From assembly GCF_000154785.2 (NCBI RefSeq), contig NC_015730.1, positions 2,108,001 through 2,172,000 of the forward strand: DNA of 64,000 nucleotides, given 5' to 3'. This document shows, in pieces, positions 34,144-49,509 of the stretch. The notes below the pieces were generated by a model. That model saw only the letters and a list, made by a program, of their open reading frames with translations, was not told the origin of the DNA and made no database searches. The position numbers and the translations under genes were made by a program. Each line of letters starts with the position of its first letter. Within the stretch, counting starts at the first letter, position 1. The stretch is from Roseobacter litoralis Och 149. GTDB lineage: Bacteria; Pseudomonadota; Alphaproteobacteria; Rhodobacterales; Rhodobacteraceae.

Positions 34144-34881
34144 ATGAACCGGCAAGACTTCCGAAAAAGATTTGGCACCTCAGGTCCGGTCATTTTGCCT
34201 GTCATTCATGTGATTGATTCCGATCAGACGCGCAGGAATATCGAGACCGCAATCGCGGGCGGCTGTCCCGGTGTTTTTCTGATCAATCACGATTTTGAAA
34301 AGGAAAAGCTGGTTCCGCTCATCAGGGAGATGCGGCAGGCATTTCCGGACATCTGGATCGGCATCAATTTTCTGGCTGTGACGGGTAAATTCGCGTTCCC
34401 CATTCTGGGCGCGCTTCAGGCAGAAGGGTGTCAGGTTGACGGCTACTGGGCCGATGATGCCCGCATTGACGAGCGCCGCGCCGAAGACGACCAGCCCGAG
34501 GCCGACGAGATCGCCAGCATCCGCAAGCAAAGCGGGTGGAATGGTCTCTATATTGGCGGAACCGCCTTCAAGAAACAGCGCGAGGTCGACCCGGCAGATT
34601 ACGCCAAAAGCGCGCGCATCGCGACGGGGTACATGGATGTCGTTGTCACATCCGGCGTGGCCACGGGCCATGCGGCCGACGTTGGCAAGATCGGGATTTT
34701 TCGCGAACACTGCGGGGACACGGCCCTTGGCCTTGCCTCCGGAATCACACCTGAGAACGCCGCGCAATACGCGGACGCGGTTGACCTTTTCATGGTGGCC
34801 ACAGGCATCAACTTCGACGGGGATTTTTACAATATCGACCCTGAACGCCTCAAGCACCTCATGGACCTCACATCGAAATAA
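34144..34881 (+). CDS. BtpA/SgcQ-like TIM-barrel protein
   Basis: The 245-residue protein resembles the BtpA family of TIM barrels. It starts PVILPVIHVIDSDQTRRNIE, continues with GVFLINHDFEKEKLVPLIRE, then VVVTSGVATGHAADVGKIG, and ends with LGLASGITPENAAQYADAVD and FMVATGINFDG, the phosphate-binding end of such barrels. Family members have been linked to photosystem assembly (BtpA) and sugar operons (SgcQ), without a proven reaction. GAGGGTAG precedes ATG 34144, and an AT-rich promoter-like stretch lies at about 34045-34110. It is followed 14 bp later by a phosphoribosyltransferase gene, hinting at a ribosyl-phosphate substrate. Confidence 0.72.
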   Translation: MNRQDFRKRFGTSGPVILPVIHVIDSDQTRRNIETAIAGGCPGVFLINHDFEKEKLVPLIREMRQAFPDIWIGINFLAVTGKFAFPILGALQAEGCQVDGYWADDARIDERRAEDDQPEADEIASIRKQSGWNGLYIGGTAFKKQREVDPADYAKSARIATGYMDVVVTSGVATGHAADVGKIGIFREHCGDTALGLASGITPENAAQYADAVDLFMVATGINFDGDFYNIDPERLKHLMDLTSK

Positions 34882-34895
34882 GGGAGAACTCAAGA

Positions 34896-35516
34896 ATGGC
34901 TGACGACAAAGGACCCAGAGACGACCGTTGGTATTTCTCGCTCATGGCGCCGAACACCAAGGGCGACAAATTTGCATGGCTGGACCCGACCTCCATCTAC
35001 ATCAATGGCAAGGCCTATCACGATCTGCTCGACGATCTGTGCAACGATCTGGATGCGGACGAAATAGACGTCGTCGCAGGGCTGGACGCGATGGGGTTCG
35101 TGTTGGCTGCAGGTATCGCGGCGCGCATCGGGCGTGGGTTTTTGCCCATCCGCAAGCCCGGCAAGCTGTGTGTGGACACGGACAGCGCGTCAATGACAAA
35201 CTATTCCGGCCAGACGCAGTCGATGGAAATGCGCACGCCTGCCTTTGCGCCGGGAACACGGGTTTTACTGGTGGATCAATGGGTTGAAACCGGCGGCACG
35301 ATGCATGGTGCGGTGCAGCTTGTTGAACAACAGCAGGGCAAGGTCGCCGGCATGGTCGCCATTGTCATGGAAGAAAACGACAACACCGCTGAATACCGCA
35401 AGAAATACAATTGCGTAACGGCCATTCAGCCCGGCACCGAATGGCAACGCCAAGCCAATGCGCAGTATCTCGAAAGCTTCAAGACATATAAGCCCGAGAT
35501 GGCGTTCCCCGTCTAA
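34896..35516 (+). CDS. Adenine phosphoribosyltransferase-like protein
   Basis: The 206-residue protein has the type I PRTase fold. DVVAGLDAMGFVLAAGIAAR and GFLPIRKPGKL (residues about 58-91) match the APRT base-binding region. The PRPP loop reads VLLVDQWVETGGTM (residues 123-136), whereas classical APRT has two consecutive acidic residues there; the second is Gln here. The enzyme may therefore use an altered base or act in reverse. GGGAGAA precedes ATG 34896. It is paired with the BtpA-like gene and precedes the LysR/Pot-type operon. I do not assign a substrate. Confidence 0.8.
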   Translation: MADDKGPRDDRWYFSLMAPNTKGDKFAWLDPTSIYINGKAYHDLLDDLCNDLDADEIDVVAGLDAMGFVLAAGIAARIGRGFLPIRKPGKLCVDTDSASMTNYSGQTQSMEMRTPAFAPGTRVLLVDQWVETGGTMHGAVQLVEQQQGKVAGMVAIVMEENDNTAEYRKKYNCVTAIQPGTEWQRQANAQYLESFKTYKPEMAFPV

Positions 35517-35705
35517 GGCCGGGGCACGGCGCTCATTCAGCTTGGGGGCGCGCCCGTTTCGGCGTGCCCTGCTTGCGCTGGAAACCGATTGCTGCACGCG
35601 ACGGGCGTTTCGCAAGATACCCGGTCGCGGGGTGGTAACGGGCGTGCGGATATTCAGAACCTTAATGGCTTCTCAATTTGAATTTCCGTTGTTAATGTGG
35701 CTCGC

Positions 35706-36590
35706 ATGGGCCCCATCAACCTTCCGACAGAGCTTTTGCGCGCTTTCATCACCGTTGTGGAAGTTGCGAGTTTTACCCGTGCTGCGGAAATACTGGGGCG
35801 CACGCAACCTGCGATCAGCCTGCAGGTCAAGCGGCTGGAGGAGTCGGTCGGCTGCACGCTGATCGAGCGTAAAGGCAAGGAAATATCCCTCACCGAACGC
35901 GGCGAGGCGCTGGCGATCCATGCCCGGCAGATCCTGCGGCTGAACGATCTGGCAATGGCGCAGTTCGAACGACCAAACCCTCTGGCCAAATTGCGTGTGG
36001 GCCTGCCGGTGGATTATGCGGTCAACGCGCTGCAGTCCTGCCTGACCGATGTCGTCAAACAATACAGCGACATCCAGATCGAGATACGTTGCGATCTGTC
36101 CAAACATCTGCTGTCGGCCATGCGCAGCAATGACATTGATATCGCGGTAGCCCTGTTTGACGGGGATGATCAGCAGTTCCTGTTCCGCAATTGGAAGGAA
36201 CAGCCCACATGGGTCGGGGCCACGGATTTTGAAATTTGCGGTCAAACCGATATCCCGCTTGTCGTGCACCCCTATGGTTGTGTCTACCGGGACCGGATGG
36301 CGACCGCATTGAAACTGGCGGGGAAAAGCTGGCGCATCGCATATTCAAGCCCGGGGATTGGCGGGCTTCAACGCGCGGTTCAGGATGGGCTCGGCCTGTC
36401 TTGTCTGACCGCGCCCACGGTTCAAAGTGGTATGCGCAAATTTACGGAACAAGACGGCCTGCCCGTCCTGCCGCCCCTGCACATCGGCTTGTTTGCGCGC
36501 CAGACACAATTGGGCGCGGGCGGATATGCGGCGATTGATGCGATGGTCACAACGCTGGAGGCGCATGCATCGGGCACGCAATCTGGATAA
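35706..36590 (+). CDS. LysR-family transcriptional regulator
   Basis: The 294-residue LysR protein has its helix-turn-helix at residues about 18-45 (ASFTRAAEILGRTQPAISLQ, then VKRLEESVG) and an effector-binding domain starting near LRVGLPVDYA. GTG 35697 is an alternative start three codons upstream; neither start has a clear ribosome-binding site. It is on the same strand as the Pot-type importer and heterocycle-degradation genes that begin 147 bp downstream, and is probably their regulator. Confidence 0.88.
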   Translation: MGPINLPTELLRAFITVVEVASFTRAAEILGRTQPAISLQVKRLEESVGCTLIERKGKEISLTERGEALAIHARQILRLNDLAMAQFERPNPLAKLRVGLPVDYAVNALQSCLTDVVKQYSDIQIEIRCDLSKHLLSAMRSNDIDIAVALFDGDDQQFLFRNWKEQPTWVGATDFEICGQTDIPLVVHPYGCVYRDRMATALKLAGKSWRIAYSSPGIGGLQRAVQDGLGLSCLTAPTVQSGMRKFTEQDGLPVLPPLHIGLFARQTQLGAGGYAAIDAMVTTLEAHASGTQSG

Positions 36591-36666
36591 GCGCTCATTA
36601 TGCAAGCATATCAACGATAAATTTCACAAAATCTGCATTTTACAATAGCATTCTTTCAAACACCGA

Positions 36667-36719
36667 CCGAACCTGAAGTTCGGCAAGACAATAATGGCTC
36701 TTTTGTTGAAAAAAGAGCA
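36667..36719 (+). promoter_or_regulatory. Two inverted repeats upstream of the Pot-type operon
   Basis: CCGAAC (36667-36672) and GTTCGG (36678-36683) form a perfect palindrome with a 5-base spacer. A second element pairs GGCTCTTTT (36697-36704 region) with AAAAGAGC (36711-36718), forming a hairpin of about 8 bp just before the binding-protein start. The first could be a LysR binding site; the second could be a 5'-UTR hairpin or a lysR terminator. Neither role is proven. Confidence 0.45.
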
Positions 36720-36737
36720 TCCAACCGGGAGACGACG

Positions 36738-37877
36738 ATGACTAAGACAACACCAGGATCATTCATGAGCGCACCAAGCCGGCGCCAATTGCTCAAGGCG
36801 GGCGGTGCCGCTGTGCTGAGCACGCCCTTTGTGAGCCGTGCATGGGCCTCAACCACCGAGATCAACATGCTGGCGTGGTACGGACACGGCGAGCCGGATA
36901 TCGTTGCGGAATACGAAGCTGCCAACAACGTGAAATTCGTCCCCAAATACTATGCAGGGGGTGACAACATGCTGGCGCTGATCGCGCAGTCCCCGCCGGG
37001 CACTTACGATCTGATCCTGTCGGACGCGGAGTTTGTGCAGCAGCTCAACCTCGCGGAATATATCGAAGAGATGAACCCCGGCGACTATCCGCTGGACGAT
37101 ATGCTGCATGAGGATTTCACACAATTTCCCGGCCACTGGGCCGATGGCAAGATGTATTCCATGATGCTGCGTGGCGGCCATCTGGGTGTGTCTTACAACA
37201 CGAATTCTGTGTCTGCCGAAGAAGCGGAAAGCTACGCCTGCTTCTGGAAACCGGAGCTTGAGGGTAAGGTCGGTCACTTTGACTGGCACCTGCCGACGCT
37301 GGGCATGATGAGCCTTTATGACGGCAATGGCGCAAACCTGTGGAACCTTGATGATGACCAGTGGGACAAGGTGCAGGAAACCACCATGAGCCTGCGCAAA
37401 CAGGTCGGCGGTTTCTTTGATTACGGCGGCACGTTCAACGGTCTCAAGAACGGCGAGATGCAGGCGATGGTCGGCATCGGCGACTGGATCACCGGCGTTC
37501 TGGAGAAAGACGGCGCACCGGTCGCATCCGTGATCCCGAAAGAAGGCGGCATCCAGTTCACCGAGAGCTATTCCATCGGCAAGGGCAGCGAAAAAGTGGA
37601 AGAGTCCAAGAAATTCATCCAGTATATGATGTCACCTGCAGGTCAGGTGAAATCCGCGCAGATGGCGGCATATCCGGGCTTCTGCGTGACCAAGGCAGGT
37701 CGCGCCGCCCTGATTGAAGCGGACCCGGCCGAAGCACAACGCTCGCATCAGATTGACGGTGATCCACAAGACCCCATCACGCTGATCAAAGAGGGTCGCA
37801 TCCATTACCGTGACATCCCACAGCAGCAATCGCTGGAGGATTGGAACGACTTCTGGTCCGAGTACAAGAACGCCTGA
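36738..37877 (+). CDS. Spermidine/putrescine-type ABC importer binding protein
   Basis: The 379-residue PotD-like protein carries a Tat signal (SRRQLLKAGGAAVLSTPFVS; twin Arg at 15-16). Its mature part has EINMLAWYGHGEPDIVAEYE and PPGTYDLILSDAEFVQQL, characteristic of the PotD/PotF group. GGGAG precedes ATG 36738. It is the first gene of a run of importer and enzyme genes extending to 42 kb. PotD-type proteins bind diverse cationic or heterocyclic amines; from context the ligand may be a nitrogenous heterocycle rather than a polyamine. Confidence 0.9.
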   Translation: MTKTTPGSFMSAPSRRQLLKAGGAAVLSTPFVSRAWASTTEINMLAWYGHGEPDIVAEYEAANNVKFVPKYYAGGDNMLALIAQSPPGTYDLILSDAEFVQQLNLAEYIEEMNPGDYPLDDMLHEDFTQFPGHWADGKMYSMMLRGGHLGVSYNTNSVSAEEAESYACFWKPELEGKVGHFDWHLPTLGMMSLYDGNGANLWNLDDDQWDKVQETTMSLRKQVGGFFDYGGTFNGLKNGEMQAMVGIGDWITGVLEKDGAPVASVIPKEGGIQFTESYSIGKGSEKVEESKKFIQYMMSPAGQVKSAQMAAYPGFCVTKAGRAALIEADPAEAQRSHQIDGDPQDPITLIKEGRIHYRDIPQQQSLEDWNDFWSEYKNA

Positions 37878-37901
37878 GCAACCGCTGAGAGACGTCAAAG
37901 A

Positions 37902-37921: not shown

Positions 37922-37948
37922 CCCTTCCCCAAAGAGTGCGAAAGCCCC

Positions 37949-38812
37949 ATGTCATCCAAACCCGAGACGCGACCGAATATCTATGCGCTGACCTGGCGCC
38001 TGCCGATCATCTTCTGGCAATTCATCTTCTTTGTCGGGCCTGTCCTGTTCATGGTCGCAATGTCGTTTTTCCTCGTGAAAAACTACCGCATGACCGAAGC
38101 GTTCGAATTTGTGAACTGGTCCAGAATGCTGTCGCGTGGCTATTTCTGGGACAGTTACTGGTATACGGTCTTCATCGCCTCGGTTTCGACCGTCTGCGCG
38201 ATGTGTATCGCATTTCCCGCAGCCTTTGCTTTGGCCTTCCGCGCCTCTGAAAGCACGCGTCGCTGGGCGATTTTTCTACTGATCATTCCTTTTTTCACCA
38301 GCTATCTGGTGCGCACCTTTTCTTGGTTCGTGATCCTTGCGGAAAGCGGCGTGCTCAACGCCATGCTGGGCACGATCGGCCTTGGGCCCTACACGATGCT
38401 GAACACCAACTTTGGCACCTTGGTCGGATATATGACCCTGACCCTGCCCCTCGTTGTGATCCTGCAAACCGTCACCATGGCCAATATCGACAAGAACCTG
38501 ATCGAAGCGGCCCGTAACCTCGGCTGCTCGCCGCTCAGAACGATCTGGCAGGTGATCATTCCGCTCGCCAAGACCGGCCTGATCATTGCCGCGATCTTTT
38601 GCTTCATCCTGTCGTTTGGTGATTTCGTGGCCCCGTTTTACCTTGGCGGATCACAGGAACCGACCCTGCCGATCCTGATCCTTGATACGACCAAATCGGG
38701 TCAGCAATGGCCCCGCGCCGCTGTGGTCGCCATCATGATGATGCTCACGTTGTTCGCCATTGCCTTCACCGGCATCGCCTTGGCCTACCGCAAAGGAAAG
38801 GGCGCGAAATGA
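37949..38812 (+). CDS. Spermidine/putrescine-type ABC permease, PotB type
   Basis: The 287-residue permease has six hydrophobic helices, the first at residues about 20-45 (WQFIFFVGPVLFMVAMSFFL), and the EAA coupling loop DKNLIEAARNLGCSPLRTIW followed by QVIIPLAKTG. It is 71 bp after the PotD-type gene and overlaps the next permease gene by ATGA. It forms the heterodimeric channel with that partner. Confidence 0.92.
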   Translation: MSSKPETRPNIYALTWRLPIIFWQFIFFVGPVLFMVAMSFFLVKNYRMTEAFEFVNWSRMLSRGYFWDSYWYTVFIASVSTVCAMCIAFPAAFALAFRASESTRRWAIFLLIIPFFTSYLVRTFSWFVILAESGVLNAMLGTIGLGPYTMLNTNFGTLVGYMTLTLPLVVILQTVTMANIDKNLIEAARNLGCSPLRTIWQVIIPLAKTGLIIAAIFCFILSFGDFVAPFYLGGSQEPTLPILILDTTKSGQQWPRAAVVAIMMMLTLFAIAFTGIALAYRKGKGAK

Positions 38813-39603
38813 AACAAAGCCGTTCCCTGAACTTTGCCCTCGCCCTTTATGTCGCGCTGATCTTTGTGTTCGTTTTTGCGCCGATCGTGTTCAGCATGAT
38901 CTTCTCCTTCAACTCGCAACGGTTTCCGACCATCCCGCTGGGCGAATTCACCACCGAGTGGTACGCAAAAATCCTTGCGGACCCTGATGTCTGGGAGGCC
39001 GCGCTGAACAGCCTGATCGTGTCTTGTTCGACAGCAGTCATCGCGACCTTTCTGGGGTTCAGCACGGCCTATTCCGATTTCCGCTATGGTTTCCGGTTCA
39101 AGGGCCCCTATCTGGCGCTGATCCTGTTGCCGCCGACCATTCCGTTGATCATCATGGCGCTGGCGATGCTTGCGTGGTTTTCCAAGATCGGCATGTCCGG
39201 GCAGCTTTATTCGATCATCATCGCGCACAGCGTTCTGACAGCGCCTTTTGCCATGGCCGTGATCCGGTTGCGCCTCAACCAGATGGACCCTGATCTTGAA
39301 TCCGCCGCGTGGAACCTTGGCGGTTCAGAATGGCAGACCATGCGTCATGTCATCGTGCCTTTCTGCAAGCCTGCGATCTTTTCCAGTCTCTTTCTGACAG
39401 CCGCGGTTTCCTTTGATGAATTTGCCGTCTCATGGTTCGTCTCGGGCCTGAACAAGACACTGCCCGTTGTCGTGCTCGAAATCGTTCAGGGCAACATTGA
39501 CCCGCAGGTCAACGCCATCGGCACATTTGTTTTCCTTATCTCAATGACCCTTGTTGTGCTGGCGCAGTTGTTTTTCGCCAGTCGCCAAATGAAGAGCACT
39601 TAA
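38809..39603 (+). CDS. Spermidine/putrescine-type ABC permease, PotC type
   Basis: The 264-residue permease begins with an N-terminal TM helix (LALYVALIFVFVFAPIVFSM) followed by the PotC motif FTTEWYAKI. The EAA loop is DPDLESAAWNLGGSEWQTMR, then HVIVPFCKPA. The frame is open upstream, but ATG 38809 overlaps the PotB stop and starts at the TM helix, so I use it. Together with PotB and the ATPase it completes the importer. Confidence 0.92.
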   Translation: MKQSRSLNFALALYVALIFVFVFAPIVFSMIFSFNSQRFPTIPLGEFTTEWYAKILADPDVWEAALNSLIVSCSTAVIATFLGFSTAYSDFRYGFRFKGPYLALILLPPTIPLIIMALAMLAWFSKIGMSGQLYSIIIAHSVLTAPFAMAVIRLRLNQMDPDLESAAWNLGGSEWQTMRHVIVPFCKPAIFSSLFLTAAVSFDEFAVSWFVSGLNKTLPVVVLEIVQGNIDPQVNAIGTFVFLISMTLVVLAQLFFASRQMKST

Positions 39604-39605
39604 TC

Positions 39606-40691
39606 ATGAACAAACCACTGGTTGTCTTTGACAAAGTAAAAAAACACTTCGGCAATTTTGTCGCCGTGAAGGAACTGGATTTCGAAATCCGCGAGGGTGA
39701 GTTTCTGGCGATCATGGGTCCATCGGGCTGTGGCAAGACCACCACCCTGCGCATGCTGGCCGGTCTGGAGGCCCCGAGCATGGGCGAAATCCGCCTTAAT
39801 GACCGGGTCATGAATGATGTCGCCCCGCATGAACGCGACACACCGCTGGTCTGGCAATCGCTGGCGCTTTTCCCTTTTCTGACCGCGCGTGAAAACGTGG
39901 AATTCGGCCTCAAGATGCGCGGCGTCGACAAGGCAGAGCGGCGTGAGCGCGCCCTGAAGTGGCTGGACAAGATGGGCATTCTGGAATTCTCCGACCGCCA
40001 TATCTCGACCCTGTCGGGGGGGCAGAAACAGCGCGTCGCCCTTGCGCGTTCGCTGGTGATGGAACCGCAGATCCTGCTGTTGGACGAACCGCTTTCGGCG
40101 CTGGATGCACATCTTGTCATCCGCATGCAGGCTGTCCTGACGGACCTGCAGCGCGAACTGGGCATCACCTTTGTCTATGTCACCCATTCGCAATCCGAAG
40201 CTTTTGCCATGGCCGACCGGGTCATTATTATGGGCAAGGGCGAGATTGCGCAGATCGGCACGCCAAAGGACATCTACCGCGAACCCGCCAACCAGTTTGT
40301 TGCGGAATTTGTCGGGCGCAACAACATCCTGTCGGGCAAGGTGGCATCAGTGGACGGCGACACGGCGCGCATCACCACGCAATCCGGGGCCTTTACCGTG
40401 CCCACCAATGAGGTGCATCTCATCGAAGGGCATGATGCGAGTTTCGTGATTTCAGCCGACCTCGTCCATATCGCCAAGGATGAACCGGCCGAAGCGAACA
40501 ACGCCTTTTGCAAGCTGATCTCCGAAGAGTTCGTGGGCTCCATGGTCACGCTCTTTCTTGAGGATGCGCAGGGTCATGAGTTCAAGGTACAGATGCAGGA
40601 ACGCGAACTGTCGAAGTTCGATCTGCACAGTGGCGATGAAATCTGGCTGTCATGGGACACGCAGAGCGCGCATGTCCTGAACCAGAGCTGA
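39606..40691 (+). CDS. Spermidine/putrescine-type ABC ATPase, PotA type
   Basis: The 361-residue ATPase has Walker A MGPSGCGKTT, the Q-loop WQSLALFPFLT, signature LSGGQKQR, Walker B ILLLDEPLSALD and the switch His in YVTHSQSE. A C-terminal TOBE domain (residues about 240-355) starts with EFVGRNNILSG, as in PotA. It begins 3 bp after the PotC stop and is followed 4 bp later by the deacetylase gene, so transport and metabolism are tightly coupled. Confidence 0.93.
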   Translation: MNKPLVVFDKVKKHFGNFVAVKELDFEIREGEFLAIMGPSGCGKTTTLRMLAGLEAPSMGEIRLNDRVMNDVAPHERDTPLVWQSLALFPFLTARENVEFGLKMRGVDKAERRERALKWLDKMGILEFSDRHISTLSGGQKQRVALARSLVMEPQILLLDEPLSALDAHLVIRMQAVLTDLQRELGITFVYVTHSQSEAFAMADRVIIMGKGEIAQIGTPKDIYREPANQFVAEFVGRNNILSGKVASVDGDTARITTQSGAFTVPTNEVHLIEGHDASFVISADLVHIAKDEPAEANNAFCKLISEEFVGSMVTLFLEDAQGHEFKVQMQERELSKFDLHSGDEIWLSWDTQSAHVLNQS

Positions 40692-40695: not shown

Positions 40696-41589
40696 GTGAT
40701 CCGCAACCCGATCCCCTGGCCCAATGGGGCAAAATGTGCCGTTGCGATCAGCTTTGACATGGATGCGGACAGCCTGATCCATATCGCCAAACCCGAAGAC
40801 GCCCATGAGCGGCTCTATCCCATTTCGATGGGGCGCTATGGGCCGATGGTCGCCCTGCCCCGCATTCTGGATACCTATCGTCGCCTCGGTCTCAAACAGT
40901 CGTTCTTCATCCCCGGCTGGTGTCTTGAGACATACCCGGATGTGGCCGAGGCCATTCTGAAAGACGGTCATGAGATTGGTCATCACGGCTATCTGCACGA
41001 GGACCCGGTCAAAACGCGCGGCGCGCAGCGGGAATGGTTTGAACGCACGCTTGATGTCCATCTGCGCATTTGCGGACAAAAGCCGCAAGGGTACCGCGCG
41101 CCTGTCTATAACATCACACAGGAAGTGGTCGATCTGATGATTGAGCACGGGATGCGCTATGACAGTTCCATGATGGCGGATGACATTCCCTACCGGTTGC
41201 AGACCGCCAATGGGGTGCTCTATGAAATGCCGGTGCATTGGGGCACGGATGATTGGCCCCCCTTCGCCCATTACGATGAAATCGGGTATATGATGCCCGT
41301 CGCCGGGCCCTCGCACGGTCTCAGTGGTTTTTGGGAGGAGTTCGAGGCGCAATACGACGCGGGCGGGTTTTTCATGCTGATCATCCATCCATTTCTGACC
41401 GGACGTCTGGCGCGCTGGAAACAGGTCGAGGCGTGGATCACCCGGACACGCGACACGCGGGACGTCTGGTTTGCAACGCTGAGCGAAATCGCCGATCATA
41501 TGGACACATTGCAACGGGACGGCATCTGGCACCCAAGTGTCGAGACGCTTCCCTATTATCAAGGTCCGGTTTTGGGTCAAAAGGAATGA
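40696..41589 (+). CDS. Polysaccharide-deacetylase-family hydrolase (PuuE-like)
   Basis: The 297-residue protein has a NodB-type catalytic domain: AVAISFDMDADS (metal-binding Asp pair, residues about 16-27), HEIGHHGYLHED (His pair, about 93-104) and GYRAPVYNI. It lacks a signal peptide, so it acts in the cytoplasm and is unlikely to deacetylate a polysaccharide. Cytoplasmic members such as PuuE hydrolyse cyclic amides (allantoin). Placed 4 bp after the importer ATPase and directly before a cytosine deaminase gene, it is a good candidate for ring opening of an imported heterocycle. The start is GTG 40696. The exact reaction is unknown. Confidence 0.85.
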   Translation: MIRNPIPWPNGAKCAVAISFDMDADSLIHIAKPEDAHERLYPISMGRYGPMVALPRILDTYRRLGLKQSFFIPGWCLETYPDVAEAILKDGHEIGHHGYLHEDPVKTRGAQREWFERTLDVHLRICGQKPQGYRAPVYNITQEVVDLMIEHGMRYDSSMMADDIPYRLQTANGVLYEMPVHWGTDDWPPFAHYDEIGYMMPVAGPSHGLSGFWEEFEAQYDAGGFFMLIIHPFLTGRLARWKQVEAWITRTRDTRDVWFATLSEIADHMDTLQRDGIWHPSVETLPYYQGPVLGQKE

Positions 41590-42309: not shown

Positions 42310-43380
42310 ATGACGACATTGGTACGCAACGCCTGGTATGTCGCTGCCTGGTCTACAGAAATTGACGATGAGCTGAGACGCTTTGTTATTCTGGGCGATC
42401 CGGTCTTGCTGTTCCGCCGCACCGATGGGCGCGTCGCAGCGCTTGAAGATGTTTGCCCACACCGCCAACTGCCGCTGAGCATGGGCAAACGCATCGGCGA
42501 TACGGTGCAGTGTGGATACCACGGGCTGACCTTTGATACGGACGGAAAATGCGTGCGCGTGCCCGGACAGGACCGCATCCCCCTATCCGCCTGCGTCGAT
42601 GCCTATCCCATCGAAGAGCGCAGCGGGATCGTCTGGATCTGGATGGGCGAGCCGGAACGCGCCAATCCCGACGACATCTTTGATTTGCCGCAGTTTCACG
42701 ATGACAGCTGGCACATGCACCACGGCGGCGCGCTGCATATCGAATCGAACTATCTGAATGTGGCCGAAAACCTCGTTGATCCTGCGCATGTGAGCTTTGT
42801 GCATGAAACAACGCTGGGCAATTCCGCTTCCGAGAACGTGCCCGTGCATGTTTCAACCGAAGGTGAAGAGATCATTGCATGGCGCTGGATACGCGACTCC
42901 GAGCCGATCGGTTTCTTCAAGGCATTTGGCGGCTTTACCGGCAATGTGGACCGCTGGCACTATTACCATCTGCGCCTGCCCTGCACCGCCTATATCGACT
43001 TTGGCTCTGCCGATGCGACCCGTGAAATCGCAGAGGATGACCGCGACAGCGGCACCCGTATTCTGGCCCTGCATTTCATGACACCGGTAACGGAGACCTA
43101 TACAATCGACCGCTGGATGCACCTGCGCAATACCGCGGTCGGCTCCGATGAGGCCTCTGACAAGATGGATGCACTGTTCGAGATTGCCTTTGGTGAAGAC
43201 AAGGAGATCCTTGAAGCGGTTCACATCGAAGAGCAACGCCCGCGCAAGCGTCGTCCGATCCGCCTCGCGATTGATCACGGGCCCATGGTCTACCGAAAGC
43301 GCATCGCCGAAATGCTCGAACGCGAGCGCACCGATGATGCGTCAGCGCCCACCAATGGGGCCTACGTCATCCATAGTTGA
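42310..43380 (+). CDS. Rieske non-heme iron oxygenase, VanA-type
   Basis: The 356-residue oxygenase component has a Rieske centre, CPHRQ (Cys49, His51) and CGYHG (Cys68, His71), and a mononuclear iron site ENLVDPAHVSFVH (His160, His165, with the bridging Asp157). The overall layout is that of VanA/DdmC-type aromatic demethylases and hydroxylases. It needs a reductase and possibly a ferredoxin, but none is adjacent; the ferredoxin at 32827 is the only candidate in the window. GGGGATAA precedes ATG 42310. It is separated by 271 bp from the deaminase gene and may have its own promoter. The substrate is unknown; hydroxylation or demethylation of a heterocycle is my inference. Confidence 0.9.
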   Translation: MTTLVRNAWYVAAWSTEIDDELRRFVILGDPVLLFRRTDGRVAALEDVCPHRQLPLSMGKRIGDTVQCGYHGLTFDTDGKCVRVPGQDRIPLSACVDAYPIEERSGIVWIWMGEPERANPDDIFDLPQFHDDSWHMHHGGALHIESNYLNVAENLVDPAHVSFVHETTLGNSASENVPVHVSTEGEEIIAWRWIRDSEPIGFFKAFGGFTGNVDRWHYYHLRLPCTAYIDFGSADATREIAEDDRDSGTRILALHFMTPVTETYTIDRWMHLRNTAVGSDEASDKMDALFEIAFGEDKEILEAVHIEEQRPRKRRPIRLAIDHGPMVYRKRIAEMLERERTDDASAPTNGAYVIHS

Positions 43381-43533
43381 TAGCGTCCGCAGGCGTGCGG
43401 GCACCGCAGCCCGCGCGCCTGCGATGGCGGTAAGGTGCTGCTTGCCAAGCGCCAAATCGCGCGTTTACTGATATGACCGCGCGGCATGAAAGCGGCAAGG
43501 ATCACGAAAACTGAACACTTCAGGGGGTTTCAC

Positions 43534-44211
43534 ATGCAACGCTACGAACTCGACCCGGAATTTGAGGCGCGTTACGAATGGACACGCGGCCCGACCCATT
43601 TGTTGGAAGAAGCCGATCCGAAAACCACTGCGCATCTGGTCATTGACATGCAGAACGGTTTTCTGCGGCCCGGCGCATTGCTGGAAACACCTCCTGCCCG
43701 CGAAGTCGTACCGCAGATCAATGCGATTTCGTCGGCCCTGCGCGCGGCGGGCGGCATGGTCGCCTTTACCCGCTTTGCCTATGATCCGACTGAAAAAGCG
43801 TGGGATGCCTTTTATCGTCGCTTCCTGAACCCTGTGCGCTCCTCCGCCCAGCAGGAGGCCTTCGGACCGGACGCGCATGACCTGCAACTCTGGGACGGGC
43901 TTGATATCGATCCGAGCGATCTGGTCGTCGACAAGACCCGGTTCAGCGCCTTCATCATGGGCACCTGCGATATGCATGAGATCTTGCAGGAACGCGGTAT
44001 CCGCACGCTGATCATCTCTGGTACAATGACCAATTGTTGTTGTGATTCAACAGCGCGCGATGCGATGCAATATGGCTATGACGTTGTCTTTGCGGCAGAT
44101 GCCACCGGGACCGTATCCAAAACGGAACAGGATGCCGCCGTGCTCAATATGGCGCTGCTGTTTGCAGAGGTCGCAAATACCGAAGATATCGTTTCAGCAT
44201 TCACGCGCTAA
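43534..44211 (+). CDS. Isochorismatase-family amidohydrolase
   Basis: The 225-residue cysteine hydrolase has the family triad: Asp38 in LVIDMQNGF, Lys134 in VVDKTRFSAF, and a cysteine in TMTNCCCDSTARDA (Cys168-170, of which Cys169 aligns with the nucleophile). Such enzymes cleave C-N bonds in substrates such as ureidoacrylate (RutB), N-carbamoylsarcosine, maleamate and nicotinamide. ATG 43534 follows CAGGGGGTT; an earlier ATG at 43486 lacks a good site. In this locus it could perform the final amide or carbamoyl cleavage after ring opening. It is convergent with the amide-type importer operon. Confidence 0.88.
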   Translation: MQRYELDPEFEARYEWTRGPTHLLEEADPKTTAHLVIDMQNGFLRPGALLETPPAREVVPQINAISSALRAAGGMVAFTRFAYDPTEKAWDAFYRRFLNPVRSSAQQEAFGPDAHDLQLWDGLDIDPSDLVVDKTRFSAFIMGTCDMHEILQERGIRTLIISGTMTNCCCDSTARDAMQYGYDVVFAADATGTVSKTEQDAAVLNMALLFAEVANTEDIVSAFTR

Positions 44212-44277
44212 TCGCTGCTACAGACACAACGCACGTCAGGGCGGACAGCATGCGCAGCCTGCCTCATGGCCTTTGGT

Positions 44278-45246
44278 TTATGATTTGCGCCGCGCGGAAA
44301 GGTCCAGCACCCGGCCGAACAGACCGCGCGGGGCCACCACAACGATGACGATAAACAGCAGACCCGTCGCAAGCAGCCAGTATTGGCCAAGCTGGTCGGA
44401 CAGTTGATCTTCGCCCCAGCGGACCAAAAGCGCGCCCGCCACCGCCGCCAGCAAGACACCGCGCCCGCCCACGGCCACCCAGATCAAGACTTCTGTTGAT
44501 AGCGCAAAGCCGATCAACTGCGGTGAGACAAAGCCGAACTGCGCCGCAAACAGCCCCCCGGCAAGACCTGCCACCATGCCCGAGAGCAAAAAGGCAAAAA
44601 GCTTGGCGATGGTGACATCAAAGCCGAGAAACCGGGTTCTTTCCTCATTGCTGCGGATCGCGGCAAGCAGCGTGCCAAAGGACGTCTGCGTTAGCCACAA
44701 CAGCAGAAAGTAGACCAGCACAAGGATGCCGAAGACCAGAAAATACGTCTCGAGCCCACTCAGGTAGATATCTTCGCGCGGCCAGGGCGTGGTCAGGGGC
44801 GGCACCCCGCACAGGCCGTTATAACCGCCGATAAAGGCCCAGCGACCTGCAGCGATTTCGATGACCACCGCAGCACAAAGCGTAACGACGGCCAAATGCG
44901 CCCCGGTGATGCCGCGCCCACCAAAGAGGAACAGCCCCAGCACAAAAGCGACACCCCCCGCCGCGAGGGTCGCCAAAAGCAGCCCCATCAGCTGGCTGTC
45001 GCCCAGCATCGGGAATTTGCCCAAGGTCACCAGCGCCATGACATAGGCGCCGACCCCAAAGAAAATCGCTTGTCCGAAACACAGGATACCCACCTGCCCC
45101 CAGATGAACGAGAGGCTGAGCGCAAAGAGCCCGTATGTCAAAAGCTGGGCCAGCTGGCTGAGACGCCAGTCATCAAGACCAAGCGGCGCGAGCAAAAGTG
45201 CAAGGCCAAAGGCGATCGACAAGAGGATTGGAAGACGGGGCAACAT
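44278..45246 (-). CDS. Branched-chain amino acid/urea-type ABC permease, LivM/UrtC
   Basis: The 322-residue permease has about ten hydrophobic helices and the LivM motifs SLSFIWGQVGILCFGQAIFF followed by GVGAYV, and the coupling loop SNEERTRFLGFDVTIAKLFA. It starts 1 bp after the LivH stop, at ATG 45246, and is the last gene of the five-gene importer operon. It pairs with the LivH/UrtB-type protein. Confidence 0.92.
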   Translation of the reverse strand: MLPRLPILLSIAFGLALLLAPLGLDDWRLSQLAQLLTYGLFALSLSFIWGQVGILCFGQAIFFGVGAYVMALVTLGKFPMLGDSQLMGLLLATLAAGGVAFVLGLFLFGGRGITGAHLAVVTLCAAVVIEIAAGRWAFIGGYNGLCGVPPLTTPWPREDIYLSGLETYFLVFGILVLVYFLLLWLTQTSFGTLLAAIRSNEERTRFLGFDVTIAKLFAFLLSGMVAGLAGGLFAAQFGFVSPQLIGFALSTEVLIWVAVGGRGVLLAAVAGALLVRWGEDQLSDQLGQYWLLATGLLFIVIVVVAPRGLFGRVLDLSARRKS

Positions 45247-45247
45247 G

Positions 45248-46102
45248 TCAGCGAAACCCTTTCCACAAGCCTTGTGGCACAAAACGGATGATGAGAATGG
45301 CAATCAGGAAGACGACGATCTGCGCATCTGCCTGCTCCATGTTTGCCGACAGAATGCCGGTGGTGCCCCCGATGGTGCCTGCGCCGACCACGGCCCCGAC
45401 GAGGGAATTCAAGCCCCCCACCAGTACCGAAAGGAACGCCGGAATTAGAAAGCCCACGCCCATCTGCGGATCGACGCTGATCATGGGGGACATGATCGCC
45501 CCGGCGATCCCCGCCAGTGCTGAGCCGACAGCAAAGGTCGCCCGGTCCATCCGGCGCGTGTTCACCCCGAGCGAGCCCGCCATGGCGCGGTTCGAGATTA
45601 CCGCGCGCACCTGAAGGCCAATCGTGGTGCGATAGATCACAAGATAGGTCGCAAGCGCCAAAGCAGCAGCCAGCGCCATGATCACCAGCCGATAGGCCGG
45701 ATAATCCACGCCCATCAGGCTGACCGAGCCGGGCACGGGGTTGGTAATGCTGACCGCGCCCGGCCCGAACAGGATGATGATCAGCTGTTTCAGCGCAATC
45801 GACAGCCCCCAGGTCGCAAGGATCGTATCAAGGGGGCGGCCATAGACATGCCGGATCACCACTTCCTCGATCAATATGCCCGCCACGCCCACGACTATGG
45901 GGGCGGCCATGATGCAGATCCAGAAAGGCACCCCCGAGGCCAACAGAGTGGCCACGGTATAGGCCCCGATCATGAACAGCTCGCCATGCGCCATGTTGAT
46001 GATGTTCATCATCCCGTAGATGATCACCAACCCCAGCGTGACAAGCAGCAGCGTTAACACGTAGCTGAACGTGTCGAGACCGATCAAGATTACGATGTCC
46101 AT
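45248..46102 (-). CDS. Branched-chain amino acid/urea-type ABC permease, LivH/UrtB
   Basis: The 284-residue permease has the LivH signatures GLVIIYGMMNIINMAHGELF followed by MIGAYT, and RAVISNRAMAGSLGVNTRRM, the EAA-like coupling loop. About eight hydrophobic helices are visible. It lies 15 bp after the LivF-type gene. The operon order SBP-LivG-LivF-LivH-LivM differs from the usual urt order (A-B-C-D-E), so I keep to the family name. Confidence 0.92.
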   Translation of the reverse strand: MDIVILIGLDTFSYVLTLLLVTLGLVIIYGMMNIINMAHGELFMIGAYTVATLLASGVPFWICIMAAPIVVGVAGILIEEVVIRHVYGRPLDTILATWGLSIALKQLIIILFGPGAVSITNPVPGSVSLMGVDYPAYRLVIMALAAALALATYLVIYRTTIGLQVRAVISNRAMAGSLGVNTRRMDRATFAVGSALAGIAGAIMSPMISVDPQMGVGFLIPAFLSVLVGGLNSLVGAVVGAGTIGGTTGILSANMEQADAQIVVFLIAILIIRFVPQGLWKGFR

Positions 46103-46117
46103 GGATAGGTGTCCTCG

Positions 46118-46828
46118 CTAGACGGAAAGATATCGAGCGATCAACTCGCTGTCGTTTTGCAATCGGGCCATGTCGTCGATCCGCTCAACAATAGCGCCAT
46201 TCTCCATGAACAGCGCGTGATGGCCCAGAAGACCTACCAGATCGAGGTTTTGCTCGACGAGCAACACGGTCAGCCCGTGCGCGCGCGCGTATTCCCTGAG
46301 GGCAACGCCGATGTCATGGACGATGGACGGCTGGATCCCTTCGGACGGCTCATCAAGGATCAGCAGATCCGGCTGACCCAGAAGCGCGCGCATGATGGCA
46401 AGCTGCTGTTGTTGTCCGCCTGACATAGTGCCCGCCTGCTGGCTGCGGCGTTCCTTGAGGATCGGAAAGACATCATAGGCCCATTCCGGCACGGTAGACC
46501 CAAGGCCCGGCTTGCCCAAAAGCCCCATGCGCAGGTTCTCTTCAACGGTGAAGTCACCAAATATCTCGCGCCCCTGCGGCACATAGCCGATTCCGGCGCG
46601 CGCGATCTTGTAGGAACTGGCCCCGGTAATGTCCTCGCCTGCAAAGCGAATGGAACCGGCACTTGCCTTGATTTGCCCGACGATGCTGCGCATCAGGGTG
46701 GTCTTGCCCATGCCGTTGCGGCCCAGCAAGGCCACGAAATCACCCTGCGCGATGCTCAGGTTCAAATCCTGCAACACCAAAGAGCCCTTGATGTACCCGG
46801 CGTGCAGTTTATCGATTTCAAGGATCAT
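46118..46828 (-). CDS. Branched-chain amino acid/urea-type ABC ATPase, LivF
   Basis: The 236-residue ATPase has Walker A GRNGMGKTT, the signature MSGGQQQQ, Walker B LLILDEPSEGIQ and the switch region VLLVEQNLD, in which Glu-Gln replaces the usual His as in LivF proteins. IARAGIGYVPQGREIFGDFT is the LivF Q-loop segment. ATG 46828 overlaps the LivG stop (ATGA). Confidence 0.93.
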   Translation of the reverse strand: MILEIDKLHAGYIKGSLVLQDLNLSIAQGDFVALLGRNGMGKTTLMRSIVGQIKASAGSIRFAGEDITGASSYKIARAGIGYVPQGREIFGDFTVEENLRMGLLGKPGLGSTVPEWAYDVFPILKERRSQQAGTMSGGQQQQLAIMRALLGQPDLLILDEPSEGIQPSIVHDIGVALREYARAHGLTVLLVEQNLDLVGLLGHHALFMENGAIVERIDDMARLQNDSELIARYLSV

Positions 46829-47571
46829 GACGCCTGCCCCAGATAGCATTCGATGACCTGCGGGTTGTTGCGCACCTCGTCATAGGTGCCCTCAGCAATC
46901 ACCGTGCCGCGCGCCATCACAGTGATCCGGCAATCAAGGTCGAGCACAAATTGCATGTCATGCTCAATCACCAGCACCGTCTTTCCAAACTCGGAAGTCA
47001 GCCTGCGGATGAGGGCCGCAATGGTCGCGGTCTCCCCTTTCGACATGCCCGCCGTCGGCTCATCAAGCAGCAGCAAATCGGCATCCACCGCCAAAAGCAT
47101 CACGATTTCCAGCCGTTGCTTTTCGCCATGGGCAAGATCGCTGGCCAGCACATCGGCCTTGTCGGTCAACCCGGCAAAGTCGAGCAGTTCAGCCAGCCGC
47201 GCAGGGTCGATCTTGTGCCAGATCAGCGAGCGCAGGGTCGGTTTGCGTGACGCGGCCGCCATCGGCAGCGCCACGTTCTGCAACACCGTCAGTTCGGGAA
47301 AAATCCCCGGCACCTGAAACTTGCGCGAAACGCCGCGCCTCGAAATCGCAATCGGTCCCTTGCCGCTGATCGCCTCGCCGCGAAAACGCACCGTGCCCGA
47401 TGTTGGCTTGAACGCCCCGGTCAGCACATTGAACAGAGTGGTCTTGCCACAACCATTCGGCCCCAGAATGCAGCGCAATTCACCCGGCTGTAGCGACAGG
47501 TTCAATGCGTCCAAGGCAACGATTCCACCAAAACGCTTGGTGATATCGTCAACTTCCAGCAGGGCCGTCAC
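46825..47571 (-). CDS. Branched-chain amino acid/urea-type ABC ATPase, LivG
   Basis: The 248-residue ATPase has Walker A GPNGCGKTT, the LivG-type insertion around ISRRGVSRKFQVPGIFPELT, signature LAHGEKQR, Walker B LLLLDEPTAGMS and the switch His in LVIEHDM. I use GTG 47571, which has AGGA 9 bp upstream; GTG 47592 is a further possible start that would overlap the binding-protein gene. Its stop overlaps the LivF start. Confidence 0.91.
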   Translation of the reverse strand: MTALLEVDDITKRFGGIVALDALNLSLQPGELRCILGPNGCGKTTLFNVLTGAFKPTSGTVRFRGEAISGKGPIAISRRGVSRKFQVPGIFPELTVLQNVALPMAAASRKPTLRSLIWHKIDPARLAELLDFAGLTDKADVLASDLAHGEKQRLEIVMLLAVDADLLLLDEPTAGMSKGETATIAALIRRLTSEFGKTVLVIEHDMQFVLDLDCRITVMARGTVIAEGTYDEVRNNPQVIECYLGQAS

Positions 47572-47582
47572 CTCCGTGCGTC

Positions 47583-48878
47583 CTAGCTGCACTGGCTGGG
47601 TGCATCAATCCGGCCCAGATCCCGCTGCACGGCCATTTCACCATTGCGCGCCGCAACGATCAGCCCATTCAGCTCGGCATGCCGGTCAGAGCGGCGGAAT
47701 TGCACCTCGCCATTGCCCGACATCACGGGAAGCTCCAGCATGGCGTCGCCAAAGGCTTCGGCGTCGGTGCTTTCCGCTTTCTTGATGCCCTCGATCAGCA
47801 AGCGCGTGGCCGTGTAATGAGCATCCACCGTGTTGGAAACGATCGCATCCGTGCCATAGCGGGCACGCACCCGCGACACCAGATCCTGAGCTTCGGGCTT
47901 GTCGAGGCTGGCCACGAAATTCGCAGGCCCGATGATCCCTTCGGCTTCTTCGACCGTCAGGCCCGACAGGTAGTTTTCGCTGAAGCCGAAACAGATGATT
48001 TCAACCTGACCTTTCAGGGGGGAGGCTGCGAATTGCTTGAGGAAAGTGATCGCGTCGGCCCCCACGATGGTCAGCACGACCGTATCCGCGCCGGAGCGTT
48101 CGATCTTGCGCAATGTCGGCGCATAGTCCTGCGCGCCCCATGCCCCGTACTCTTCGGCCACCACGGTGGCACCGCGCGCGTCAGCCGTCGCCCTGAACGA
48201 CGCGTTCATCTTCTGTGGCCAGATATAATCGCTGCCCAGCAGGAAAAAGCTACCCAGATCATTTGCAAGCGCATAGTCGACCAATGGGGCGACCTGATGC
48301 TCGGGCAGCGCGCTGTAGCAGGTCAAAAACGGGCTGCACACACCGCCCTCATAATCGGTTGCGTAAATCAGCGGCGTGCGGAAGCGCTCATATACCGTCT
48401 GGATCGCATCCCGCGATGCGCTGGTCACCGGACCGACAACGGCAGAAACACCGCGCGCACGGATCAGCTCGTTAGAGCGTTCAACTGCGGTCGTCGGGTC
48501 GGTTTCCGTGTCGGCCTCGATAATTTCGAACATACGCCCACCCAGAACGCCGCCCGCCTCATTGGCCTCAAGCAGCGCCATTTCCGTACCCTGCGCGCCC
48601 TGACGCCCCAAAAGCTCCAGCCCGCCGGACAGTGGCTGCAAAATACCCACGGGGATGGTGTCCTGCGCGCGCAGAATAGATGGCGTTCCCAGCGCAGCAA
48701 GGGCCATGCCCCCGGCGCCGTATTTCAGAATATCCCGTCTGCTGGCGGCTGGCTTGAGCTTGCGTGTCGTGTTTGGTGATCTCCCTCTTTGGACCCTTGA
48801 GTTTGTTTTCTGCGACAGTGCCCAGCTTGCGACATGCGAGCGCGGTGTCAGCGCCGGATCTTTCTTGCGCCAGCCCAA
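47583..48878 (-). CDS. Amide/urea/branched-chain-type ABC binding protein (Peripla_BP_6)
   Basis: The protein is a Peripla_BP_6 binding protein of the UrtA/AmiC kind: IPVGILQPLSGGLELLGRQG followed by VLGGRMFEIIEADTETDP, and VSAVVGPVTSASRDAIQTVY. A Tat-like signal lies at SRRDILKYGAGGMALAALGT. The only standard start in frame, TTG 48878, has no ribosome-binding site and adds about 36 non-signal residues. An ACG codon at 48770 lies 9-10 bp after GGGAGA and would give a textbook signal beginning TRKLKPAASRRD, so translation may really begin there (395 residues). It is the first gene of the importer operon, divergent from MarR. The ligand is probably a urea-, amide- or carboxylate-type product. 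Confidence 0.88.
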   Translation of the reverse strand: MGWRKKDPALTPRSHVASWALSQKTNSRVQRGRSPNTTRKLKPAASRRDILKYGAGGMALAALGTPSILRAQDTIPVGILQPLSGGLELLGRQGAQGTEMALLEANEAGGVLGGRMFEIIEADTETDPTTAVERSNELIRARGVSAVVGPVTSASRDAIQTVYERFRTPLIYATDYEGGVCSPFLTCYSALPEHQVAPLVDYALANDLGSFFLLGSDYIWPQKMNASFRATADARGATVVAEEYGAWGAQDYAPTLRKIERSGADTVVLTIVGADAITFLKQFAASPLKGQVEIICFGFSENYLSGLTVEEAEGIIGPANFVASLDKPEAQDLVSRVRARYGTDAIVSNTVDAHYTATRLLIEGIKKAESTDAEAFGDAMLELPVMSGNGEVQFRRSDRHAELNGLIVAARNGEMAVQRDLGRIDAPSQCS

Positions 48879-48917
48879 GGAAAAGATGCCTTTCTACCGA
48901 CGTATTCTCAGGTTAAA

Positions 48918-48954
48918 GTTAGTGAACGAAGTGTCAACTACTTTGTACACTAAC
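48918..48954. promoter_or_regulatory. MarR-type operator between the amide importer and marR
   Basis: GTTAGTGAACGAAGT (48918-48932) and ACTTTGTACACTAAC (48940-48954) form a 15-bp-arm inverted repeat matching at 13 positions, with a 7-base spacer. It sits about 64 bp before the MarR ATG and upstream of the importer operon, in the divergent control region. Size and position fit a MarR dimer or dimer-pair operator. Confidence 0.75.
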
Positions 48955-49017
48955 AGATTTGACATCGGGATAACCGCATCAGCGGAAATAGTTTTCCGGG
49001 ACAGAGGGGTAAGCGCA

Positions 49018-49509
49018 ATGGATGACGCGACCGGGTCGATTCAGCCAGATGATACCCGGCAACGGGCCAAGACCTATCACCTTCAATCACAGGTCGGATT
49101 CCAATTGCGAGTTGCAAGCCAGATCGCAATCGAACAGTTTTCACAGGTCTATGGAGAAGAGGCCGAAACCGCAAAAATCACCACTAGCCAATTTGCTGTG
49201 CTGACCACCCTTTGGGAGGCGTCCGATTTGTCCCACAAGGAACTGGCACGGCGCACCTCGATGGACATGCCGACACTCAACGGGCTGCTCAAGCGCCTGT
49301 TGGCCAGAGCACTTGTGACGATCAGCATCTCCAAAAAGGACAAGCGCTATAAGGTCATCAATCTGACGGCCCAGGGACGGGCGCTGGCGGAACATCTGCG
49401 CGCGCGCGGCCACCTCGTCACTCAGCGCGTCTTGCAACCTTTGTCCGATGACGACCAAAAAACACTGAATGAAGTGCTCACCCGTCTGATTTCCGGCCAT
49501 CGCGGGTAA
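49018..49509 (+). CDS. MarR-family transcriptional regulator
   Basis: The 163-residue protein has a winged helix-turn-helix at residues about 58-110: TSQFAVLTTLWEASDLSHKE, then LARRTSMDMPTLNGLLKRLL, with the wing ISKKDKRYKVINLTAQGRAL. The DxR-type wing motif is present as KDKR. ATG 49018 follows GAGGGGTAA. It is divergent from the amide-type importer operon and has a strong palindromic operator in between, so it probably represses that operon and itself until an aromatic or heterocyclic ligand binds. Confidence 0.92.
   Translation: MDDATGSIQPDDTRQRAKTYHLQSQVGFQLRVASQIAIEQFSQVYGEEAETAKITTSQFAVLTTLWEASDLSHKELARRTSMDMPTLNGLLKRLLARALVTISISKKDKRYKVINLTAQGRALAEHLRARGHLVTQRVLQPLSDDDQKTLNEVLTRLISGHRG

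Follow-up and report, generated by a model that had tools for sequence, protein, structure and literature searches.

Several described systems resemble parts of the locus analyzed here. The creatininase-creatinase route consists of a P. putida-type creatininase (PF02633) and a creatine amidinohydrolase, and in other genomes both enzymes are encoded beside an importer of the family found here. The genome of Roseobacter litoralis OCh149 shares the creatinase, whereas it has no close creatininase, and a PuuE-like protein of another family stands instead. The CrnT-CodA system of Corynebacterium glutamicum, as far as passages of PMC8864220 describe it, likewise combines an importer with a cytosine-deaminase-type enzyme; here, however, the importer is of the ABC type and the deaminase is of the fungal type, in contrast to the amidohydrolase CodA. 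The PuuE allantoinase and cyclic imide hydrolases (P. putida imidase, A. nidulans HxnM, HpPgdA) belong to the same family as the PuuE-like protein and have the same active-site-type residues, but the latter stays far below the cut-off of the PuuE model TIGR03212 (56.7 versus 424.6 bits). The URC pathway (UPRT, URC1, URC4) shares a PRPP-dependent logic, and URC genes are joined to the cluster at two loci (L059, L103), whereas R. litoralis has no URC4 and has a BtpA-phosphoribosyltransferase pair instead. With the BtpA/SgcQ family (E. coli SgcQ, cyanobacterial BtpA), the locus shares a Pfam BtpA domain barely above the cut-off; its protein falls below TIGR00259 and NF045918 and is paired or fused with a phosphoribosyltransferase.

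The window, i.e., the whole stretch of 64,000 nucleotides that was analyzed, contains, as intact ORFs at the given positions, all genes that an earlier note had named. Their families were upheld by profile searches, with permeases and ATPases assigned from reading the sequence. The genes are listed below, with their presence among 47 loci that were collected with the BtpA protein as query and in which members were counted by identity floors.

34105..34881, plus strand: BtpA/SgcQ-like protein, a predicted phospho-sugar or nucleotide enzyme (PF03437, 33.2 bits, cut-off 30; 46 of 47 loci)
34896..35516, plus strand: APRT-like phosphoribosyltransferase (PRTase; PF00156, APRT models below cut-off, divergent PRPP motif VDQWVETGG; 44 loci)
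35697..36590, plus strand: LysR regulator (PF00126 and PF03466; 30 loci)
36738..37877, plus strand: periplasmic substrate-binding protein (SBP) of a Pot-type importer (PF13416, SBP_bac_8; twin-arginine-like signal judged by eye; 34 loci)
37949..38812, plus strand: ABC permease 1 (ORF; PermB, 34 loci)
38806..39603, plus strand: ABC permease 2 (ORF 38707-39603, later start picked; PermC, 33 loci)
39606..40691, plus strand: ABC ATPase (ORF; 32 loci)
40696..41589, plus strand: PuuE-like, cyclic-imidase-like hydrolase (Polysacc_deac_1), a candidate non-homologous creatininase or N-methylhydantoin hydrolase (27 loci)
41595..42038, plus strand: fungal-type cytosine deaminase (FCD; dCMP_cyt_deam_1), a candidate creatinine and/or cytosine deaminase (23 loci)
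42310..43380, plus strand: Rieske VanA-type oxygenase (PF19112, VanA_C, and PF00355), a neighbor outside the recurring unit
43486..44211, plus strand: isochorismatase-family hydrolase (PF00857), a neighbor so far only in this strain
44278..48740, minus strand: Liv/Urt-type ABC importer of five genes (ORFs, SBP by profile), a neighbor so far only in this strain
48922..49509, plus strand: MarR regulator (PF01047), a neighbor common to the sister genome G011

The isochorismatase-family protein stayed below the RutB cut-off (TIGR03614, 84.4 versus 377.95 bits), and the UrtA-like SBP reached 202.7 bits at a model cut-off of 492.75. A motif scan yielded a sigma-54-like match at 44663 on the minus strand, within the Liv genes.

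The recurring unit is 34105-42038 and comprises the BtpA-like protein, PRTase, LysR, the Pot-type ABC importer, the PuuE-like hydrolase, and FCD. These genes recur together, patchily, across marine Alpha- and Gammaproteobacteria. At none of the 47 BtpA loci was a Rieske, isochorismatase, UrtA, LivH, or MarR gene found (50% identity floor). Several loci stop short of the Rieske-to-MarR positions, and where the gene order is that of the window, the 10-kb flank takes in the Rieske position and ends before the Liv genes; the absence is therefore better supported for Rieske than for isochorismatase, Liv, and MarR. In G011, the Rieske and MarR genes come after the operon, and the 20 kb at the site contain no stretch matching 43401-48949, i.e., isochorismatase and Liv genes. 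The earlier note had united all genes from BtpA to MarR in one system. The part from BtpA to FCD stands, whereas the Rieske protein, which elsewhere lies beside the operon in the sister genome only, the isochorismatase, the second importer, and MarR are not supported as members. What is upheld is a recurring combination of an importer with hydrolases for a small nitrogen heterocycle, and to our knowledge it matches no textbook gene cluster. No account of the operon or of a PuuE-type creatininase was found in titles and abstract openings of the literature, few subscription papers included. Within the genus, a close BtpA protein is present in just 3 of 19 genomes (the strain's own, G000, as well as G011 and G018), and a survey of 398 genomes of the phylum with the SBP (E 1e-90) retrieved the own genome and two relatives with 42–43% identity.

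The SBP is 67–79% identical to SBPs that adjoin true creatininase and creatinase genes at four loci (L145, L146, L147, L102). G074 and G091 contain a compact operon with the order creatininase-SBP-permease-permease-ATPase-creatinase (SBP identity 67–68%); these two genomes are MAGs titled Oceanospirillaceae and Pseudomonadales. In G360, the genes for creatinase, creatininase, LysR, SBP (74%), permeases, ATPase, and FCD all adjoin, and in G266, the first four (SBP 79%) share one short contig, with permeases, ATPase, and FCD on another; neither genome has a PuuE-like gene at E 1e-40. In G160, two creatininases separate the ABC genes from FCD, and the G160 enzyme aligns over 251 residues with a solved creatininase (E 5e-101). 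In G092, CodA, a creatininase, and a further amidohydrolase come before the ATPase and a permease. In a 44-row tree of the SBP, from which one further row (L052) was removed, the creatininase label requires three changes, each forced by well-supported branches, one of them being the remote, long-branched L114 row.

The best solved relatives of the PuuE-like hydrolase turned out to be 3rxz (E 3e-53) and HpPgdA (3qbu, E 8e-26), while PuuE chains matched at E 3e-13 and 1e-10. Six residues, D21, D23, H97, H101, R134, and H231, are invariant in 21 of 21 aligned proteins; by analogy, we take them to be of the metal/catalytic type. Cyclic imide hydrolase and HpPgdA are tied to small cyclic imides in passages of PMC9304392, which bears on the protein of the window because HpPgdA is its relative. 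Among 56 genomes, the PuuE-like hydrolase and true creatininase excluded each other: 38 had only the former, 6 only the latter, none both, and 12 neither, with a p-value of 0.0006 that is indicative only, because the genomes are related; the PuuE-like cut (at least 58% identity) was picked after the matches had been viewed. When a PuuE subgroup with 48–50% identity was counted as well, the respective numbers were 41, 4, 2, and 9 (p 0.02, equally indicative). Only 6 of 69 genomes have a true creatininase, and the own genome contains no match to the P. putida type at E 1e-20, a search limited to close members of PF02633. The own genome has no CodA match at E 1e-60 either.

A creatinase-type protein is encoded in the own genome at G000:C3:136917-138122 (80% identity; the creatinase query matched solved creatinases at E 1e-149 to 1e-153). 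Creatinase is present in 35 of 38 genomes with the PuuE-like protein, the exceptions being G079, G093, and G097, and also in 7 of 12 tested genomes without it. Co-occurrence by itself was set aside as a weak argument, creatinase being common. In six genomes (G059, G060, G061, G065, G068, G071), creatinase lies 1–3 kb downstream of FCD; four of them have a second near-full creatinase elsewhere, and G061 has a second match of 128 residues. According to passages of PMC3141670, R. litoralis OCh149 grows on creatinine and the enzyme for the initial step was not found; they also discuss creatinine among algal osmolytes and call the pathway clear in R. denitrificans. G011, likely the R. denitrificans genome, has no close creatininase either. 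Growth of R. denitrificans on creatine without a homolog of the transporter CreT is described in a passage of PMC8864220.

On balance, we consider it probable that the operon imports and degrades creatinine, that the PuuE-like protein replaces creatininase, and that creatinine and/or cytosine is the substrate of the deaminase. The earlier note had favored a cytosine-like substrate. Creatinine is likelier than a purely pyrimidine substrate because other genomes have creatininase and creatinase genes on the flanks of this importer family, and because R. litoralis is reported to grow on creatinine although the first step is unexplained (PMC3141670, in the passages mentioned); cytosine is possible as well. 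Gene content, recurrence, the pattern of replacement, and the catalytic residues were observed, whereas we infer the substrate, each reaction, and the link between the BtpA-PRTase pair and the deaminase product. The Pot-type ABC importer would bring in creatinine, and perhaps also creatine or cytosine. The PuuE-like protein, with its polysaccharide-deacetylase/cyclic-imidase fold, would preferably hydrolyze the ring lactam of creatinine to yield creatine, which the creatinase encoded on C3 would convert to sarcosine and urea; alternatively, it might open N-methylhydantoin to N-carbamoylsarcosine. FCD would strip the exocyclic amino group from creatinine and/or cytosine; the creatine route can do without it, since FCD coexists with creatininase (L102, L114). 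Several points argue against creatinine, among them that true creatininase is rare, that creatinase is common anyway, that the BtpA-PRTase pair has no obvious place in creatinine breakdown, and that the pathway statement for R. denitrificans in PMC3141670, as worded in the passages cited, rests on a gene not matched here.

FCD itself points to cytosine. Its closest solved relatives are yeast-type cytosine deaminases (E about 1e-42), and H54, E56, C81, C84, N43, and W141 are invariant in 17 proteins, with F104 and D144 nearly so; H54/E56 (HxE) and C81/C84 (PCxxC) presumably form the zinc site, and the remaining residues presumably correspond to base contacts of the yeast enzyme. Because FCD keeps these residues and adjoins uracil genes in other lineages, the operon could import cytosine, which FCD or CodA would convert to uracil for use by PRTase, UPRT, or URC enzymes, the creatininase neighbors serving a second substrate. 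L059 has URC1-URC4-UPRT within the cluster, in L103 FCD is followed by a TetR_C_3 (RutR-like) regulator and URC1, and L105 and L112 show the orders URC4-UPRT-FCD and UPRT-FCD; the URC1 and URC4 labels are based on Pfam domains and general pathway knowledge, RutR-like on TetR_C_3, and the UPRT and MtoX labels on sequence judged by eye. In line with a cytosine operon, CodA-type deaminases occur in some genomes without FCD, and the two tend to replace one another (among 55 genomes, 32 with FCD only, 10 with CodA only, 7 with both, and 6 with neither). However, this explanation, which we regard as rather unlikely, gives no role to the PuuE-like hydrolase or to the creatininase and creatinase genes beside the same importer, and URC4 (DUF1688, PF07958) exceeded the cut-off in just 4 of 51 genomes or records, with no match in G000. 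URC-type uracil degradation was thus rejected as the main role of the operon in this strain.

Creatinine might also be degraded by the deaminase route alone, with FCD yielding N-methylhydantoin, the PuuE-like protein N-carbamoylsarcosine, and an isochorismatase-type hydrolase sarcosine. CodA is reported to convert creatinine to N-methylhydantoin in C. glutamicum (in a passage of PMC8864220), and all three enzyme types are neighbors in the window, where the isochorismatase at 43486-44211 could be the N-carbamoylsarcosine hydrolase. Nevertheless, the isochorismatase is not a recurring companion of the operon, and the operons of G069 and G073 carry the PuuE-like gene without FCD, though with CodA elsewhere, so we judge this sequence of steps to be unlikely. 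The enzyme classes that adjoin in this strain had led the earlier note to an oxidative route, in which a cytosine-like compound is deaminated, oxidized by the Rieske protein to a barbiturate-type ring, opened by the PuuE-like protein, and cleaved by the isochorismatase. This route was dropped on recurrence and is extremely improbable: the Rieske gene is missing from all 47 loci, the isochorismatase is unmatched at the site even in G011, and no reductase gene was noticed adjoining the Rieske gene. The D-hydantoinase/dihydropyrimidinase model TIGR02033, which also spans hydantoinases, was exceeded in 31 of 36 genomes, including the own one; a new uracil route therefore need not be assumed there.

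The BtpA-PRTase pair may represent a phosphoribosyl-dependent branch. The PRTase has profile matches to APRT structures and stays below every APRT equivalog cut-off tried (best 97.6 bits versus 125 to 243), and BtpA gave a single, chance-level match to solved structures. Both form a single ORF in L068, L069, and L114, and they sometimes adjoin PRPP synthetase, UPRT, or URC uracil genes; PRPP synthetase is also annotated for the L019 copy. The pair was not found at E 1e-20 in G266, G360, and G384, and six Oceanospirillaceae/Pseudomonadales genomes have it while lacking FCD and a close PuuE-like protein; among these six, only G074 and G091 have creatininase. It would most likely serve a PRPP-dependent side branch acting on the deaminated base. 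A doubtful extension is that BtpA, PRTase, and PRPP synthetase constitute a second phosphoribosyl-driven ring-degradation route like URC, in which the deaminated base (N-methylhydantoin or uracil) would be ribosylated with PRPP. Either the PuuE-like hydrolase or BtpA would then open the ring of the ribotide, BtpA would cut the N-glycosidic bond, and ribose-5-phosphate would be recycled to PRPP.

With creatinine as the probable substrate, a candidate importer and a candidate ring-opening enzyme can be named for two gaps, the first step of creatinine degradation in R. litoralis and growth on creatine without a CreT homolog in R. denitrificans. If this is true, creatininase activity evolved at least twice in unrelated families, the usual annotation as polysaccharide deacetylase or PuuE-like protein conceals it, and it would be clear how a seaweed bacterium lives on creatinine although it lacks the first enzyme of the textbook pathway. 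The BtpA-PRTase pair would supply a biochemical setting for the little-understood BtpA family.

All open reading frames named in the earlier note were intact and belonged to the families stated there. The part of the operon at 36738–42038 looks like a single transcription unit preceded by BtpA-PRTase and LysR, because the five gaps from the solute-binding protein (SBP) gene to the fungal-type cytosine deaminase (FCD) gene are short (one of 71 nt, four of at most 5 nt or overlapping), whereas LysR has gaps of 180 and 147 nt on its two sides and a distance of 271 nt sets off the Rieske gene. A PRPP synthetase gene between PRTase and LysR was not found in the window. Upstream of the operon, 31401–33968 carries a methanethiol-oxidase-like gene (SBP56, recognised by eye), a ferredoxin-like gene and a membrane protein gene.

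Searching genome contigs with BtpA as query gave 47 loci; identity floors were applied to some genes, and the counts are limited where loci end. BtpA was present in 46 loci, PRTase in 44, SBP and PermB in 34 each, PermC in 33, ATPase in 32, LysR in 30, DUF1989 in 8, creatinase in 4, and URC1 and URC4 in 1 each. The earlier note had proposed one catabolic system including FCD, the PuuE-like protein, a Rieske oxygenase and an isochorismatase. The first two indeed recurred (23/47 and 27/47 loci), but Rieske and isochorismatase, as well as UrtA, LivH and MarR, were found in 0/47 loci, within the limits set by locus ends. In the sister genome G011, 34857–42037 was matched at 94.8% identity, followed by Rieske (88.8%) and MarR (75.6%). 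Window 43401–48949, about 5.5 kb with the isochorismatase and the Liv-type importer, had no match there within the 20 kb compared at the operon site. Going by record titles, the loci come from Phaeobacter, Sulfitobacter, Roseovarius, HTCC2255, Ahrensia, Granulosicoccaceae and Oceanospirillaceae, among others, and gene order varies, the ABC genes being divergent from BtpA-PRTase in L049–L056 and L060–L066. The unit is patchily distributed: a close BtpA occurred in 3 of 19 same-genus genomes, and among 385 genomes from the class 20 had FCD (E 1e-30).

The recurring marine operon most likely serves creatinine. The known routes of creatinine breakdown are treated in passages of PMC10215027. According to passages of PMC3141670, R. 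litoralis grows on creatinine and has the second-step enzymes of both possible pathways, while the initial-step enzyme is not encoded as far as its authors could see. For each missing first step the operon has a candidate, the PuuE-like hydrolase for creatinine to creatine and FCD for creatinine to N-methylhydantoin. A passage of PMC8864220 describes R. denitrificans as a creatine user that lacks a homologue of CreT, and the ABC importer is a candidate for this uptake too.

The genomic context of the importer links it to creatinine enzymes. In G074 and G091, the same importer family (SBPs 67–68% identical to the window SBP) sits between creatininase and creatinase, in the order divergent LysR, creatininase, SBP, two permeases, ATPase, creatinase. 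SBPs with 74–79% identity adjoin creatininase and creatinase in G360 and G266, and in G092 the ATPase and a permease are preceded by CodA (amidohydrolase-type deaminase), creatininase and a further amidohydrolase. For the creatinase query, structures of creatine amidinohydrolase gave matches with E values from 1e-149 to 1e-153. G160, where two creatininases and FCD separate the ABC genes from a BtpA-PRTase fusion, is a remoter case, because its SBP is only 42% identical to that of the window, the conserved C-terminal aspartate is missing from its FCD, and the M24 gene next to these has only 38–40% identity to creatinase. The G160 creatininase matched solved creatininase structures of the P. 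putida type (E 5e-101).

In 56 genomes (50 BtpA-bearing and six from the FCD class search), the PuuE-like protein, at an identity cut of at least 58% chosen after the matches had been seen, and true creatininase excluded each other (PuuE-like only 38, creatininase only 6, both 0, neither 12; Fisher p 0.0006). When a PuuE-like subgroup at 48–50% identity was counted, the numbers were 41, 4, 2 and 9 (p 0.02). In an SBP tree of 44 rows (L052 dropped), the creatininase label required three changes: G360/G266 branch next to G447/G369, which carry PuuE, within a fully supported group, and the long-branched G160 row accounts for the third. The PuuE-like protein is a probable non-homologous replacement of creatininase. 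A tendency to mutual replacement was seen for FCD and CodA (55 genomes: FCD only 32, CodA only 10, both 7, neither 6), and a Rhodovulum plasmid has a CodA-type gene at the place expected for PuuE and FCD. A GlxA-type AraC regulator (DJ-1 + HTH_18) lies 3′ of FCD and faces a creatinase gene in L025 (10143–11189), L027, L031, L034 and L037. In L055 (584–3594), L060 and L066, genes recognised by eye as a P450-reductase-type fusion and an SDR adjoin FCD or PRTase.

The closest structure to the PuuE-like protein was 3rxz (E 3e-53), which carries no name beyond polysaccharide deacetylase, followed by HpPgdA (3qbu, E 8e-26) and PuuE chains (E 3e-13, 1e-10). HpPgdA is related to cyclic imidases that act on small rings, as stated in a passage of PMC9304392. 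The metal-type residues were invariant in 21 PuuE-like sequences, including the 48–50% subgroup, which in L123, L124 and L125 lies near short-chain dehydrogenases. Relatives with 64–69% identity adjoin DUF1989 in L128, L133 and L136. Counted without an identity floor, DUF1989-like proteins, possibly ureido or guanidino enzymes, occur next to the cluster or PuuE-like genes in 15 of 88 loci, for example:
L026, 5829–6599, DUF1989-like protein
L138, 5375–6043, DUF1989-like protein
L103, 2415–3077, DUF1989-like protein
L128, 7769–8446, DUF1989-like protein
L136, 1555–2223, DUF1989-like protein

We know of no PRPP-using step in creatinine breakdown. BtpA adjoins PRTase in 44/47 loci, PRPP synthetase accompanies the pair in 13/47, and BtpA and PRTase are fused in three:
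L068, 4394–5776, fused BtpA-PRTase
L069, 10007–11386, fused BtpA-PRTase
L114 (G160), 10355–11737, fused BtpA-PRTase
In L059 (Magnetovibrio MAG), 1289–11390, the genes for importer, PuuE-like protein, FCD, URC1, URC4 (DUF1688), UPRT, BtpA and PRTase follow one another.
UPRT, like URC1 and URC4 part of the URC uracil pathway, is near the pair in 9/47 loci, on the opposite strand in six (L040, L043, L044, L046, L057, L067), where it may be a chance neighbour. URC4 converts ribosylurea to urea (a passage of PMC7530994); the L059 protein has a weak, sub-cut-off Q_salvage match, a hint of an N-glycosidase. Plasmids of Variovorax, Bosea, Delftia and Pseudomonas (L021, L022, L023, L024) carry distant BtpA relatives (29–35%) next to hypothetical genes, in one case with a Thg1-like gene nearby. 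At E 1e-20, BtpA was not found in G266, G360 and G384, all with importer and FCD. Among 50 BtpA-bearing genomes, 44 had FCD or CodA and six neither (G077, G080, G087, G098, G101, G105). The pair thus loosely tracks a deaminase, which suggests a deaminated base as its substrate.
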